A DNA stretch of 64,000 bases from Haloactinopolyspora alba (lineage in GTDB: Bacteria; Actinomycetota; Actinomycetes; Jiangellales; Jiangellaceae). The stretch spans positions 186,001 through 250,000 of the forward strand of contig NZ_PYGE01000007.1 in the NCBI RefSeq assembly GCF_003014555.1, read 5' to 3'. Below the pieces are notes generated by a model. That model had not been told where the DNA came from and made no database searches. It saw nothing but the letters and a program-made list of their open reading frames with translations. The number at the start of each line of letters is the position of its first letter. The first letter of the stretch is position 1. Positions 22,928-27,662 of this stretch are shown one piece after another. A program made the position numbers and the translations under genes.

Positions 22928-24238
22928 TCAGGGTCCGAGCACCCGGTCGAGGTACTGATTGGTCATGATCCTTTCCGGGTCGACGCGGTCTCGGACCGCG
23001 CGGAAATCGTGCAGTCTGTCGTAGTGATCAGAAAGATACGTGATGTCGCGCGTGTGCAGCTTGCCCCAGTGTGGTCGGCCGGCGTACGAGGTCCACAGCC
23101 GTTCCGCGGCGTCGAACCAGCCCCGGTAGTCGGTGCCGGGGTAGGCGTGGGTGGCGACGTACACGGTGTCCCGGGCATGTGCGGGGGAGAGCCACACGTC
23201 GTCGGCCGGAGCGGTACGGACCTCGACCGGGAACGCGATGCGCCACGGGCCGCCGGCGGTGAGCTCGCGCAACTCGCGTAGGGCCGGCACCGCCGCGGCC
23301 CTCGGCAGGGCGTACTCCATCTCGTGGAACCGCACCCGCCGGGTACTGGTGAACACCGCCGGCGCGTCGTCGACGGAGGAACGGCGCCCGATCAGCCGCG
23401 CGGCGGCGCGGTTCACCGCCGGGGTCACCCGCGGCACGGCCCTGGACAGCCGCTGCGTCAGCGCGACACCGGCGTTCTCGACCACCTCGTTCGACAGCCG
23501 GGCGGACAACCGGCCGGTCCTGGTGGGCCGTTCGTCGGTGCGGCGGTTGCGTTTGAGCTGGACCGCATCGGTGAACGGGAGCCAGTAGAACTCGACGTGC
23601 TCCTCGTCGGCGGCGAGGTCGTGGAAGGCGTCGAGGACGTCGTCGAGCCCGGCCCGCTCTTGGACGGCCCGTAGCCGGAACGCGGGCTCGACGTGGAAGG
23701 TCACCGCGGTGATGACGCCCAGGGCGCCGAGTCCGAGCCGCGCGGCGTGGAAGAGGTCGGCGCCGTCACCGTGGTCGTCCGCGGCCACGTCCGCCAGCGA
23801 ACCGTCGGGCAGCACCATCCGTACCCGGCGCACGGCCGCGGCGAGCGCGGCACTGGCACGCCCGGTGCCGTGCGTGCCGGTCGAGACCGCTCCGGCGACC
23901 GTCTGGACGGCGACGTCGCCCATGTTCCTCAGCCCGTACCCGCGCACGGCGAGGGCGTCGTTGAGCTCGCGGATGGTCGTGCCGGCGGCGACGGTGGCCT
24001 CGGCGCCGCCGTCCGCGGCCGGTTCCAGCGCCAGCAGGCCGCGCAGCCGGTCCAGCAGCACGAGCACGCCGTCGGTGGCCGCCACCGGGGTGAAGCTGTG
24101 CCCGGCGCCGGCGGCCTTGACGCGCAGGTTGCGGCGCGCGGCGTCGGCGACGACGGCGGCGACCTCGTCCGCGTCCGCCGGCCGGACGACGCGCCGCGGG
24201 TCGCAGTGGACCGTGCGAGCCCAGTTACGCCACGTCAC
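22928..24238 (-). CDS. D-arabinono-1,4-lactone oxidase-type FAD oxidoreductase
   Basis: A 436-residue VAO-type flavoprotein. The N-terminal FAD-binding half has AAGAGHSFTPVAATDG near residue 43 and the pyrophosphate loop VSTGTHGTGR near 117; the C-terminal half is the ALO domain with the hallmark HWGKLHTRDI near 388. Relatives oxidise aldonolactones or sugar alcohols, passing electrons to oxygen or another acceptor. It starts at GTG on the minus strand, divergent from ferrochelatase. An ALO-type oxidase beside sepH and ferrochelatase is a common actinobacterial order. Confidence 0.88.
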   Translation of the reverse strand: MTWRNWARTVHCDPRRVVRPADADEVAAVVADAARRNLRVKAAGAGHSFTPVAATDGVLVLLDRLRGLLALEPAADGGAEATVAAGTTIRELNDALAVRGYGLRNMGDVAVQTVAGAVSTGTHGTGRASAALAAAVRRVRMVLPDGSLADVAADDHGDGADLFHAARLGLGALGVITAVTFHVEPAFRLRAVQERAGLDDVLDAFHDLAADEEHVEFYWLPFTDAVQLKRNRRTDERPTRTGRLSARLSNEVVENAGVALTQRLSRAVPRVTPAVNRAAARLIGRRSSVDDAPAVFTSTRRVRFHEMEYALPRAAAVPALRELRELTAGGPWRIAFPVEVRTAPADDVWLSPAHARDTVYVATHAYPGTDYRGWFDAAERLWTSYAGRPHWGKLHTRDITYLSDHYDRLHDFRAVRDRVDPERIMTNQYLDRVLGP

Positions 24239-24332
24239 GTCGGGTCCTTCCGGGCGGCCGGCAGGGTGTGGCCGGCGCCGTCACCGCACCCTGCGCGCGC
24301 ATGTCCGGAGCGAACTTGGCAGGATCGTGCGG

Positions 24333-25451
24333 GTGAGCGAAACGCGAAATCGCGTCGATCCGTACGACGCACTGCTCGTGGTCTCCTTCGGCGGGCCGGA
24401 GAGCGACGACGACGTCATGCCGTTCCTCGAGAACGTCACCCGGGGACGCGGAGTGCCCCGGGAGCGCCTCGAGGAGGTGGCCGAACACTACTACGAGTTC
24501 GGCGGCCGCAGCCCGATCAACGCCCAGAACCGGGCGCTGGTGGCCAACATCGAGCACCTGCTCGCCGAGATCGGCATCTCGATGCCCGTCTACTGGGGCA
24601 ACCGGAACTGGGACCCGTACCTGGCCGACGAGCTCACGCGCATGCGCGACAACGGCATCGGCCGGGCGGCGGTGTTCATCACCAGCGCGTACGACTCCTA
24701 CTCCGGGTGCAGGCAGTACCGGGAGGACCTGGCGGACGCGGTGGCGGCGGTCGGTCCGGGAGCGCCGCGTCTGGATCGGCTGCGGCACAGCTTCGACCAC
24801 CCGGGATTCATCACGGCGAACGCCGACGGCGTCGTCGGCGCGCTGGGCGACCTGCCGGCGCAGCTGACCGGCCGGGCGCGGATCGTGTTCGTCACCCATT
24901 CGATCCCGGTGGCGATGGCCGAGACGTCCGGTCCGTCCGGCGGCGCCTACGTGGCCCAGCACGAGGCCGTCGCCGAGGCCGTCGCCGCGCAGGTGGCCGA
25001 GCGTACCGGCGTGCAGCGCCCGTTCGACCTCGTCTACTGCTCGCGCAGCGGACCGCCGGAGATGCCGTGGCTGGAGCCGGACGTCAACGACCACCTGGCG
25101 AGCCTGGCGGCGGACGGCGTCGAGGCGGTGATCCTGGCGCCGATCGGGTTCCTCTCCGACCACATGGAGGTCGCCTACGACCTCGACACCGAGGCGATCG
25201 CCACGGCCAAGGAGCTGGGTGTCGCGGCCGCGCGCGCGGCCACCGCCGGGACGCACCCGGACTTCGTCGCCACCGTCGTCGACCTGCTGACCGAACGGGC
25301 CGCCGTGGAGCGTGGTGAGGACGTCACCCGGGCGAGCGTGCTGTCGCTCGGGCCGGCGCCCGACGTCTGCCCCGCGGGCTGCTGCCCGAACCTCCGCGAG
25401 TCACGACCCGCCCTGTTCGGCGAGGACGCCCCACCCCACCCGTCGCCGTGA
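24333..25451 (+). CDS. hemH: Coproporphyrin/protoporphyrin ferrochelatase
   Basis: A 372-residue ferrochelatase that inserts ferrous iron into a porphyrin; in Gram-positive bacteria the substrate is coproporphyrin III (CpfC). Seen: LLVVSFGGPESDDDV at the start, SAYDSYSGCRQYRED, the metal-centre VFVTHSIP (His) near 185, and the GFLSDHMEVAYDLD block near 275. Cysteines in VYCSRSG and DVCPAGCCPN near the C-terminus fit the [2Fe-2S] ligands known from actinobacterial enzymes. GTG at 24333 lies eight bases after AGGA; a GTG at 24327 is too close to it. Its stop abuts the first copy of the 61-bp inverted repeat. Confidence 0.93.
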   Translation: MSETRNRVDPYDALLVVSFGGPESDDDVMPFLENVTRGRGVPRERLEEVAEHYYEFGGRSPINAQNRALVANIEHLLAEIGISMPVYWGNRNWDPYLADELTRMRDNGIGRAAVFITSAYDSYSGCRQYREDLADAVAAVGPGAPRLDRLRHSFDHPGFITANADGVVGALGDLPAQLTGRARIVFVTHSIPVAMAETSGPSGGAYVAQHEAVAEAVAAQVAERTGVQRPFDLVYCSRSGPPEMPWLEPDVNDHLASLAADGVEAVILAPIGFLSDHMEVAYDLDTEAIATAKELGVAAARAATAGTHPDFVATVVDLLTERAAVERGEDVTRASVLSLGPAPDVCPAGCCPNLRESRPALFGEDAPPHPSP

Positions 25452-25511
25452 ATGACCACGTTCACCATGGAATTCCATGCGTCACCACCCCTGCAGGCCT
25501 GGTGACGCGTG
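25451..25511 (+). repeat. 61-bp inverted repeat, left copy
   Basis: Exactly complementary to 26398-26458 over 61 bp, with 14 of 19 further inward positions also matching (to about 25530). Contains the 14-bp palindrome CATGGAATTCCATG (25466-25479) and a hairpin with 9-bp arms GCGTCACCA / TGGTGACGC (25479-25508) around CCTGCAGG. Begins at the last base of the ferrochelatase stop codon. Confidence 0.95.
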
Positions 25512-25554
25512 TACTCGCCTGGTGGTGTCCACCGATGAACCCGAGGAGTGCCCC

Positions 25555-26364
25555 GTGACGGTCGACCCCGCAGCCCTGCTGGCCCTCGCCGAGTCGACCG
25601 CGCGTGAGGCCGGCGCCATGGTGCATCGGCGCCGCGAGGCGGTCGAGCGCATGGACGTCGCCGCGACCAAGTCGACACCCACCGACGTCGTCACCGAGTC
25701 GGACACGGCCGCGGAGACGCTGATCCGCGAGCGCCTGCTGGCCGCTCGGCCCGACGACGGGATCCTCGGCGAGGAGGACGGGCACACGGCGGGCAGCTCG
25801 GGCGTCGACTGGGTGGTCGACCCGATCGACGGCACCGTGAACTACCTCTACGGCATGCCGCAGTACGCGGTGTCGATCGCCGCGCGCGCCGACGGAGTGG
25901 TGGTCGTCGGCGTGGTGCACAACCCGGCCAGTGGCGAGACCTGGACGGCGGTCCGCGGCGGTGGCGCCCACCTGGACGGCCGCGCGATCCGCGTCACGTC
26001 GTGCGACCGGCTCGACCTCGCCATGGTGGGCACCGGCTTCGGCTACGACGCGGACCGGCGGGCCCGGCAGGCCGCGGTGTTGCTCGACCTGGTGCCGGTC
26101 GTGCGCGACATCCGCCGTGCGGGAGCCGCGTCGCTGGACCTGTGCTGGGTGGCCACCGGCCGGCTGGACGCCTACTACGAACGCGGGCTGAAGGCGTGGG
26201 ACATGGCCGCCGGCGCGCTGGTCGCTGAGGAGGCGGGCGCCGTCGTCACCGGGCTGCGGGGCACGGAAGCCGGCGAGGACCTGATGCTGGCGTGTACCCC
26301 CGGCGTGGTGGACGAGCTGCGTGCGCTGTTGGAACGCCTCGGTGCCGACCGCGACCTGAGCTGA
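25555..26364 (+). CDS. Inositol-monophosphatase-family phosphatase
   Basis: A 269-residue Mg-dependent phosphatase. Metal motifs in order: GEEDG near 65, WVVDPIDGTVNYLYGMPQYA near 83-102, and the C-terminal KAWDMAAGALVAEEAG near 220. Family members hydrolyse inositol-1-phosphate, 3'-phosphoadenosine phosphates, fructose-1,6-bisphosphate or histidinol phosphate; the substrate cannot be read here. Start chosen at GTG 25555, six bases after GAGGAG; a longer frame starting inside the inverted repeat is rejected. The gene is enclosed by the two 61-bp inverted repeat copies, which is unusual for this conserved locus. Confidence 0.9.
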   Translation: MTVDPAALLALAESTAREAGAMVHRRREAVERMDVAATKSTPTDVVTESDTAAETLIRERLLAARPDDGILGEEDGHTAGSSGVDWVVDPIDGTVNYLYGMPQYAVSIAARADGVVVVGVVHNPASGETWTAVRGGGAHLDGRAIRVTSCDRLDLAMVGTGFGYDADRRARQAAVLLDLVPVVRDIRRAGAASLDLCWVATGRLDAYYERGLKAWDMAAGALVAEEAGAVVTGLRGTEAGEDLMLACTPGVVDELRALLERLGADRDLS

Positions 26365-26397
26365 GCGACGGGGTTTCCGGCCACCACTGGGCGAATG

Positions 26398-26458
26398 CAC
26401 GCGTCACCAGGCCTGCAGGGGTGGTGACGCATGGAATTCCATGGTGAACGTGGTCATT
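26398..26458 (-). repeat. 61-bp inverted repeat, right copy
   Basis: Mirror copy of 25451-25511. The outer edge contains the stop codon of the ABC permease gene (26454-26456), the inner edge lies 33 bp after the IMPase stop. Its hairpin may terminate both convergent genes, but the identity to the left copy is far beyond what a terminator needs. Confidence 0.95.
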
Positions 26459-27662
26459 TCCCGGCCGGCGTGGAGGTACCGCGGTCGGGGGTGAGCGCCT
26501 CGCGCCAGGAGACCTTGGCACCCATCCGCAGCACGGCGCCCTCGTAGATCCGGGCGGCCAGCGCCACCAGCAGCACGATCAGCAGCAGCATCGACCCGAG
26601 CGCCAGCCCGACCTCCCAGCCGGCGGCATCGCCGCGGGCCATCCGGATCGGCATGACCAGGGCGCTGAACGGCGGCAGCACGCTGACCACCCCGACCAGC
26701 GGACTGTCCGGGCTCATGAACGCGAGGAAGCTGGCGAAGTACGAGATCATCGTCAGCATCGTCACCGGCGTCGTGACGTTCTGCAGCTCCTCCTGACGCG
26801 AGATGCGCGCGGCCGCGGCGGCGGACAGGCACGAGTAGGCGGCGTAGCCCAGCACGAACCAGCCGAGCGACAGCAGCACCGGTGTCAGCATCGACGCGGT
26901 CAGCGTGACCATCCCCAGCCCGCCGGCCAGCGCCAGCCCCAGCGCGCCGATCACCATCAGCTGCACCAGTCCGAGCAGGCCGATGCCGACGATCTTGCCG
27001 GCCAGGAGCGCCCTGGCCGGGATGGCGGCCAGCATCACCTCGACGACCCGGCTCGACTTCTCCTCGACGACGCCCATGGCCACCCACATCGAGTACCCCA
27101 TGAGCTGGCCGAACAGCACCATCGAGCCGAAGAACGCGACGACGCCGCGGGTGTTGCGCTCCTCCGCTTCGGGATCGAGCGTGACGGTGCCGAGCGTCGC
27201 GCCGTTCAGCGCCGCGGTCACCTCCTCCGGGTCGATGCCGGCCTCGGAGAGCGCCGCGCTGCCCTGGACCTGGCTGTAGGCGTTCTGCAGCACCGCTCGC
27301 AGCGAGTCGTCCAGGTCACGTTCCACATAGACGGAGTCGCCGTCGACGTAGGCGTCCAGGTCGCCGTCGGTGACGGCGCCACGTGCCTGCTCGGCGTCGG
27401 CGACGTCACCGAACTCGACCTCCACACCGGCGACGTCGGCCTGCTGCTGGACCGCGCTGCGCAGGGCCTGGTCGCCACCGAGCAGGCCGACGTCGAAACT
27501 GTCCTCGCCGACGTCGGTGAACCGCGGGAAGAGCGCGACGACGGCGATGATGCCGACGGTGACCGCGGTCGAGATGAAGAACGACCGGTCGCGCAGGCGC
27601 TGGCCGAACTCGCGGCGCGCCACCAGTGTCGCGGCGGCGCGAAAGGTCAGGGCGCGGCTCAT
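26454..27662 (-). CDS. ABC-2 type exporter permease (NatB/YhaP-like)
   Basis: A 402-residue membrane protein. One N-terminal helix (FISTAVTVGIIAVVALFP) is followed by a ~150-residue extracellular domain with negative charge (DVGLLGGDQALRSAVQQQADV), then five or six C-terminal helices, the layout of Na+-efflux NatB-type and drug/peptide ABC-2 exporters. Its GTG/ATG start overlaps the ATPase stop by 4 bp, so the two form one unit. The 3' end lies inside the right inverted repeat copy. Substrate unknown. Confidence 0.87.
   Translation of the reverse strand: MSRALTFRAAATLVARREFGQRLRDRSFFISTAVTVGIIAVVALFPRFTDVGEDSFDVGLLGGDQALRSAVQQQADVAGVEVEFGDVADAEQARGAVTDGDLDAYVDGDSVYVERDLDDSLRAVLQNAYSQVQGSAALSEAGIDPEEVTAALNGATLGTVTLDPEAEERNTRGVVAFFGSMVLFGQLMGYSMWVAMGVVEEKSSRVVEVMLAAIPARALLAGKIVGIGLLGLVQLMVIGALGLALAGGLGMVTLTASMLTPVLLSLGWFVLGYAAYSCLSAAAAARISRQEELQNVTTPVTMLTMISYFASFLAFMSPDSPLVGVVSVLPPFSALVMPIRMARGDAAGWEVGLALGSMLLLIVLLVALAARIYEGAVLRMGAKVSWREALTPDRGTSTPAGK

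Follow-up and report, generated by a model that had tools for sequence, protein, structure and literature searches.

The stretch of DNA analysed here, referred to below as the window, comprises 64,000 nt of Haloactinopolyspora alba (contig NZ_PYGE01000007.1, positions 186,001 to 250,000; C7:186001-250000 of genome G000, 5.54 Mb in 49 contigs). It raises the question of why a single gene, for an inositol monophosphatase (IMPase), lies between the arms of an inverted repeat whose outer edges coincide with the ends of the neighbouring ferrochelatase and ABC permease genes. A sequence-only reading of the window had described the repeat as exact over 61 bp with 14 of the next 19 bases also matching, which agrees with the 94% complementarity over 80 nt between 25451-25530 and 26379-26458. 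It had proposed either a pair of the repetitive extragenic palindrome (REP) or miniature inverted-repeat transposable element (MITE) type, or an invertible cassette, with duplicated terminators as a fallback; the names IMPase and ABC permease are taken from it. We read the repeat as a new, REP-like hairpin family that is either mobile or evolving in concert. The explanation favoured here, to which a probability of roughly 0.6 is given, is that the pair consists of two members of this family-wide repeat, copied or homogenised, which would act in the transcript as 3′ ends.

A 77-nt repeat placed behind stop codons

Each arm carries a palindrome and a hairpin, as the sequence-only reading had noticed. 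When as many as 2 mismatches are allowed, the window contains two occurrences of the palindrome CATGGAATTCCATG, where shuffled sequence would give 0.02; the 30-nt hairpin core, allowed as many as 3, likewise has two against 0.00. The repeat recurs well beyond the two arms: a first search of the genome gave at least 40 matches (40 candidates were scored, every one matching), a pattern search allowing up to 3 mismatches found 114, and a covariance model (R1), for which 30 copies served as the seed, placed at least 134 strong copies at E ≤ 6.1e-10, a lower bound because 150 of 4847 candidates were scored. These 150 matches correspond to 143 places, six having been dropped as the opposite strand of a kept place and a seventh being C30:33401, with E 0.004. 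Nine of the 143 are weak (E > 1e-9), namely six palindromes and three fragments or variants, and the clean numbers are those of the 134 strong places. The unit measures exactly 77 nt in 111 of the kept places, its consensus over 30 copies is AATGACCACGTTCACCATGGAATTCCATGCGTCACCACCCCTGCAGGCCTGGTGACGCGTGCACTCGCCTGGTGATG, and it starts with AATGAYCACG or a close variant.

The six palindromes, whose sequence is AATGATCACGTTCCGCATGGAATTCCATGCGGAACGTGATCATT and whose length is 44 nt or close to it, have the left half of the 77-nt element in common with it and are found at C2:423007, C3:55, C10:103281, C10:140756, C12:135491 and C7:154699; the first of these, the only one folded, gave a z of -10.6. 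Five copies (C15:98338, C18:63041, C10:131817, C14:86904 and C1:270001) have the left arm AATGATCCACGTTGTTGAAGCATGGAT, or a close variant of it, in place of AATGAYCACGTTCACCATGG.

According to gene calls made with a simple codon-usage script rather than a published gene finder, none of the 143 places lies inside a predicted gene, and in 93 of the 134 strong ones the element comes after a gene that reads in its own direction (sense). Counted from element position 1, the stop codon falls at -18 to +26 nt in 91 of these 93, whereas 7.3% of the window's intergenic positions and strands fall 0-26 nt behind a sense stop. At 27 strong places the distance is exactly -5, so that the gene ends on the TGA at element positions 3-5, and at 10 places it is -1, where the first A of the element completes the stop. 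Three of the 44-nt palindromes also lie at -5 and provide TGA as the stop. When the nine weak places are included (n = 143), the counts become 100 sense, 98 at -18 to +26, 31 at -5 and 10 at -1, the 31 including a fragment, C8:147240, without the element start. Both arrangements are present in the window: the last base of the ferrochelatase TGA is the first A of copy 1, and the permease stop codon is the TGA at positions 3-5 of copy 2, so the claim that the outer edges sit at the two stop codons holds, with stops that touch or lie in the element. A purine immediately precedes the element in every one of the 117 copies inspected. Among 56 copies examined in relatives, 39 of the 55 with a called upstream gene have a sense stop no more than 30 nt away.

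The repeat also favours convergent neighbours. Of 101 sense cases with both neighbours, 58 (57%) face a convergent gene and 43 are co-directional; estimated from adjacent pairs, a gene end faces a convergent gene in about 42% of cases in the window and in 36% in the relative G007. Sixteen element genes, including two that have the palindrome, could be matched to a best orthologue of at least 60% identity (15 in G007, 1 in G001). The C-termini of these 16 proteins range from 13 residues shorter to 6 longer than those of the orthologues, and no AATGAYCA occurs in the 50 nt after the stop of the orthologues.

The conserved hairpin and the C-rich gene tail

The alignment of 46 copies from ten genomes (A5: 5 of the 111 full-length own copies and 41 copies of relatives, picked by R1 score), gap-free over 77 columns, reveals one long imperfect hairpin from position 12 to 75, with an outer helix (12-17/70-75), an inner helix (23-41/46-64) and a loop at 42-45, which is TGCA in copy 1. 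A short central hairpin had been considered as the structure and was discarded as too small once sister copies had revealed the long one. Its partners pair in 77.7% of cells, a share that falls to 30.3-46.6% once one partner is shifted along the alignment, and 18 of the 25 pairs have changed on both sides. Double-changed cells number 102 against 39.2 in shuffled alignments, and none of 500 shuffles was as high; as A5 was found with R1, nine of the tested pairs were already in that model, and the other 16 were not. The hairpin is thus kept across species by compensatory changes. Folds of single copies from relatives gave z values of -9.95 (G005), -9.54 (G007), -5.90 (G020) and -2.75 (G006).

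A small open reading frame (ORF) within the element, MTTFTMEFHASPPLQAW, retains its ATG start and its length of 17 codons in 91 of 111 full-length own copies and 27 of 41 copies of relatives. It was rejected as a selected peptide since its third codon positions are the least variable, the entropy by codon position being 0.33/0.43/0.25 in the own genome and 0.75/0.84/0.71 in relatives.

The sequence that precedes the element is biased as well. Its last 25 nt have C 0.487 and G 0.245 over 97 element genes, against C 0.347 and G 0.363 at 47 gene ends of the window that served as controls, with offsets sampled to the same distribution and the window's two element genes included. In 41 copies from nine other genomes the values are C 0.466 and G 0.250 before the element, while the downstream side of the same copies is balanced (C 0.340, G 0.345); 11 copies outside the family have C 0.495 and G 0.295 before it. 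TGA is the stop codon in 90 of the 97 element genes and in 36 of the 47 controls, an excess partly explained by the element itself supplying the TGA in some cases. Stretches with C over G are a hallmark of Rho loading sites.

These features suggest that the element is probably used as an mRNA 3′ end after Rho-dependent termination. The proposed model is that an enzyme copies the units to new sites or homogenises them where they are; that the C-rich, G-poor, rut-like tail of the gene would let Rho end transcription downstream; and that exonucleases would then trim the transcript back to the hairpin behind the stop codon, which would form an end stable against 3′-5′ exonucleases. The hairpin would also face the transcription arriving from convergent neighbours. 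That Rho-dependent ends are trimmed has been described for Bacillus subtilis (PMC12350095). Of the proposals of the sequence-only reading, the duplicated terminators come nearer to this functional one.

Relatives, paired copies and competing explanations

The pattern with up to 3 mismatches is confined to the own genome (0 of 59 other genomes), and R1 has matches in 15 of these 59, the listed ones nearly all of 77 nt. A second covariance model, R2, built from 46 copies, found diverged copies in 18 of 22 family genomes. In the rest of the class it gave weaker matches in 11 of 371 genomes, of which two (G238 and G033) lack the GAYCACG start and are possibly due to chance, the start of the remaining ones being partly what the model seeks. 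Hairpins of a similar kind, opening with GTTGACCACG, GTTGATCACG or something close to these, lie at loci L279-L286 (families f9, f28 and f40), and L280 and L282 have both element ends. The unit may be much older than the family. Elsewhere, an exact pattern had no match in the genome-contig collection, in which near relatives may not be represented; another exact pattern had none in viral contigs, and plasmids and phages gave no match. No Rfam 15 family scored above its gathering score in window positions 25300-26600 or in four loci of relatives, and no description recognised as this element was found in the open-licence PubMed Central literature.

Copies mostly resemble each other more within a genome (mean identity 0.71-0.88) than between genomes (0.61-0.76); six genomes have more than two copies, and for five of these the internal identity exceeds that to any other genome. 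Their places are partly shared: among 43 element genes of relatives, 8 have an orthologue that is also followed by the element in the own genome. Chance would give about 1 if the element accompanies 100 of roughly 4,800 genes, or perhaps 2-3 if only the ends of transcription units count (both by hand arithmetic). One of these eight is 92 nt away, and a left-arm variant is the own copy in one. Occupying a shared place makes copies hardly more similar (for example 0.77 against a mean of 0.76, and 0.56 against 0.58), so that either the places were inherited and the sequences homogenised in each genome, or the same places were hit again.

No offset stands out as a target-site duplication over 117 copies, as the sequence-only reading had noted for the pair, and a MITE with target duplication was therefore discarded. 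The transposases associated with REPs were sought through the Y1_Tnp domain (PF01797), for which 10 of 14 control genomes gave matches, above the cut-off in 6. An autonomous partner was looked for with one pattern search, which returned 2 occurrences, both known copies; the pattern demands a non-C at position 16 and misses elements that share the first 16 bases including that C. The repeat is itself a target: one insertion sequence (IS), with ends GGCGGTGTCCATCGGTGTAAGCAACG and GGTGGAATCTATCGGTGTAAGCAACG, sits at a single fixed place in the element, and all 12 exact matches to its ends lie at contig ends (L158-L169) flanked by an element half, two further matches having 2 mismatches. The peptides coded at the ends of this IS resemble an IS30-family transposase, a family assignment that we take as a guess. 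At L127, L130 (two copies) and L126, two other sequences, which end in GTCACAAGAGCC and GTCACAACAGCC, directly adjoin GGAATTCCATGCG of the element; it looks as though further mobile elements targeted the CATGGAATTCCATG palindrome.

It could be argued that the repeat is a selfish, non-autonomous element that inserts into C-rich DNA behind stop codons, or survives only there, with no benefit to the host. This would fit its high copy number, its mostly genome-specific sequence, the best orthologues of the 16 element genes without AATGAYCA behind their stops, and its use as a target by other mobile elements. The structure, however, has been retained over genera, and the share of common places exceeds the expectation, which makes a purely selfish element unlikely, though not to be dismissed lightly.

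The inverted pair and its neighbours are listed in Table 1. Twelve pairs of own neighbours lie less than 3 kb apart, where uniform placement gives 10.7, and 11 of them are '+-', with AATGAYCA ends outward, one is '++' and none is '--' or '-+'; they enclose 122 to 2760 bp. A hand count in relatives of the family gave 12 '+-', one weak '--' (L251), one weak '+-' (L266) and one unreadable pair (L243), and outside the family two direct pairs 56 nt apart are '--' (L281) and '++' (L285). As some loci were fetched because two matches lay close together, only orientation is informative here. For gaps above 500 bp, and with the weak '+-' and the unreadable pair omitted, 14 of 16 pairs are '+-', against 24-31% predicted from the layout of gene ends, which corresponds by hand to about 5e-6 in a test chosen post hoc. 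One part of the sequence-only reading holds up here: copies less than 3 kb apart almost always enclose a segment in inverted arrangement.

Table 1. Features of the inverted pair and its neighbours (window coordinates)
Feature	Position	Strand	Basis
Element copy 1 (77 nt)	25451..25527	+	Covariance model R1 match C7:211451-211527 +
Element copy 2 (77 nt)	26382..26458	-	R1 match C7:212382-212458 -
Hairpin of copy 1	25462..25525	+	Covariation over 46 copies; RNA fold -32.5 kcal/mol, z -3.35
Hairpin of copy 2, layout as copy 1	26384..26447	-	Covariation; RNA fold -30.8 kcal/mol, z -2.77
17-codon ORF MTTFTMEFHASPPLQAW within copy 1	25452..25505	+	Judged a by-product, not a gene
Ferrochelatase-containing ORF, gene upstream of copy 1	23709..25451	+	Relatives match from about 24366 onward
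IMPase-type gene, between the copies	25555..26364	+	Start codon assumed
ABC permease-type gene, upstream of copy 2	26454..27662	-	ORF call

A cassette or composite transposon, whose arms would recombine and so invert the IMPase gene or carry it elsewhere, would agree with the '+-' arrangement and with the fact that the two copies of the window are, reciprocally, the most alike (0.948). Yet only 2 of 10 pairs compared are reciprocally best, and the identical 61 bases are also present in two unrelated copies among the 111 full-length ones, C5:281192 and C30:33745; the 61-bp arms are simply the stretch over which copies 1 and 2 agree. Gene order also counts against a cassette: the IMPase gene follows ferrochelatase co-directionally in all 11 loci fetched from relatives, with or without repeats. 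In G006, two copies flank it at the two places of the window and in the same inverted arrangement; behind ferrochelatase lies a long palindromic copy in G010 and, in G012, a palindrome of AATGATCA that is short; in G007, G003, G009 and G011 (g3) no match lies between the two genes. G008, otherwise without R1 or R2 matches, has a perfect palindrome, CCGTGATCATTGGCTTTTGACTACCGAATTCGGTAGTCAAAAGCCAATGATCACGG, at the IMPase end (L152), with its TGA read as stop. In G001, which belongs to the own genus, the best IMPase match reaches 39% and is not a close homologue, and the homologues in the genome-contig collection are distant (at most 54% identity; 67 loci, not used further). Because the IMPase gene adjoins ferrochelatase in repeat-free relatives, and one copy lies behind each inward-pointing flanking gene, it is not cargo; a copy goes with the gene behind whose stop it lies. 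The gene order of relatives and the number of copies led to the rejection of the invertible cassette, and hardly any weight is left to it.

Several results count against transcript ends made by a copied, family-wide hairpin. Firstly, 41 of the 134 strong places are not called sense, 16 being antisense and 25 without a clear coding signal (5 of the latter have less than 150 nt upstream). Secondly, no intrinsic terminator (hairpin plus T run) was detected in the stretch scanned, 25400-26500. Thirdly, RNAalifold returned no consensus structure from the same 46-copy alignment, and G-U pairs hardly exceed A-C mismatches in relatives (24 against 20); the excess in the own genome (129 against 23) is dominated by two positions, so that mismatch counts do not favour RNA over DNA as the level of selection. 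The C-rich stretch could reflect an insertion preference rather than a function, and would look identical. Furthermore, R2 had no match in four family genomes (G008, G017, G018 and G021), a result that the selfish element would accommodate, and in G003 the 4 copies are less alike (0.706) than they are to those of G007, of the same genus (0.757). Y1_Tnp had 0 matches in the genome at E ≤ 10, enzymes of other kinds lying outside this search, and this also counts against the selfish element. Finally, the facing orientation of pairs is not accounted for by a role at transcript ends; purging of direct repeats by deletion would account for the missing '++' and '--', and not for the missing '-+'.

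Some of these results would suit a site that acts in DNA, where cruciforms at the ends of genes would serve to organise the chromosome, to influence supercoiling or to bind proteins; such roles have been suggested for REPs and bacterial interspersed mosaic elements (BIMEs). The near parity of G-U and A-C in relatives, the 44-nt palindromes with the same left end and the predominance of inverted pairs point in this direction. The sense orientation and the upstream skew of C over G are nevertheless strand-specific, which makes such a site rather improbable, more so than the selfish element.

Known repeats and the meaning of a possible copyable gene end

MITEs are small, non-coding, dispersed elements with an inverted-repeat structure. 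The present repeat shares all of these properties and differs from them in having no target duplication and, in the pattern search above, no autonomous partner, although one with a longer shared end would escape it. In PMC3733652 and PMC2817692, REPs and BIMEs are described as high-copy, extragenic palindromes that mostly follow coding regions, separate genes that converge or run in one direction, and often form inverted dimers. REPs have a length of 20-40 nt and a GTAG or CGTC tag at one end, the GTAG type having transposases of the REP-associated tyrosine transposase (RAYT, Y1) group and the CGTC type none dedicated to it. The present repeat is likewise high-copy, extragenic and palindromic, lies at the 3′ ends of genes and favours convergent pairs. 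Unlike REPs, it has 77 nt and an AATGAYCACG end without either tag; the GCGTC of the own copies lies within the stem and is not conserved in relatives, and, unlike for GTAG REPs, no RAYT match accompanies it, on which ground a RAYT-driven REP was rejected. It is thus classed as REP-like rather than as a tagged REP, the tag and transposase having been looked for and not found. Of the REP/MITE type first proposed, the REP side has been retained, on account of the high-copy extragenic palindrome at gene ends and its use by an IS, and the MITE side abandoned for want of a target duplication. The word Actinobacteria is absent from PMC3733652, which refers to REP-like families without a tag in Mycobacterium tuberculosis.

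Two other comparisons are instructive. The mycobacterial interspersed repetitive unit (MIRU), reportedly inserts at start codons and couples to the next gene (PMC12548453). Both are short repeats with a small ORF and a position at gene borders where start and stop overlap. Unlike the MIRU, the present element follows the stop codon, the next gene lies on the same strand at only 56 of the 143 places, and its ORF shows no coding constraint by codon positions. Some IS elements target REPs (PMC1525189), and the IS found here, which occupies one fixed place in the element, resembles them, the host repeat being a different one.

A broader proposal, put forward tentatively and well below the 3′-end role in likelihood, is that the repeat constitutes a copyable, modular gene end, made of its own stop codon and a hairpin, which is placed behind C-rich tails, captures the ends of transcription units throughout the family and is renewed in each species at partly shared places, and whose facing pairs may bracket or insulate single genes. 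If the role at 3′ ends is true, one repeat family would set the stopping points of many genes, and the copying of the repeat would amount to a bulk rewiring of transcript ends. With no known transposase, the way in which such hairpins spread becomes a question that this repeat has in common with the CGTC REPs.

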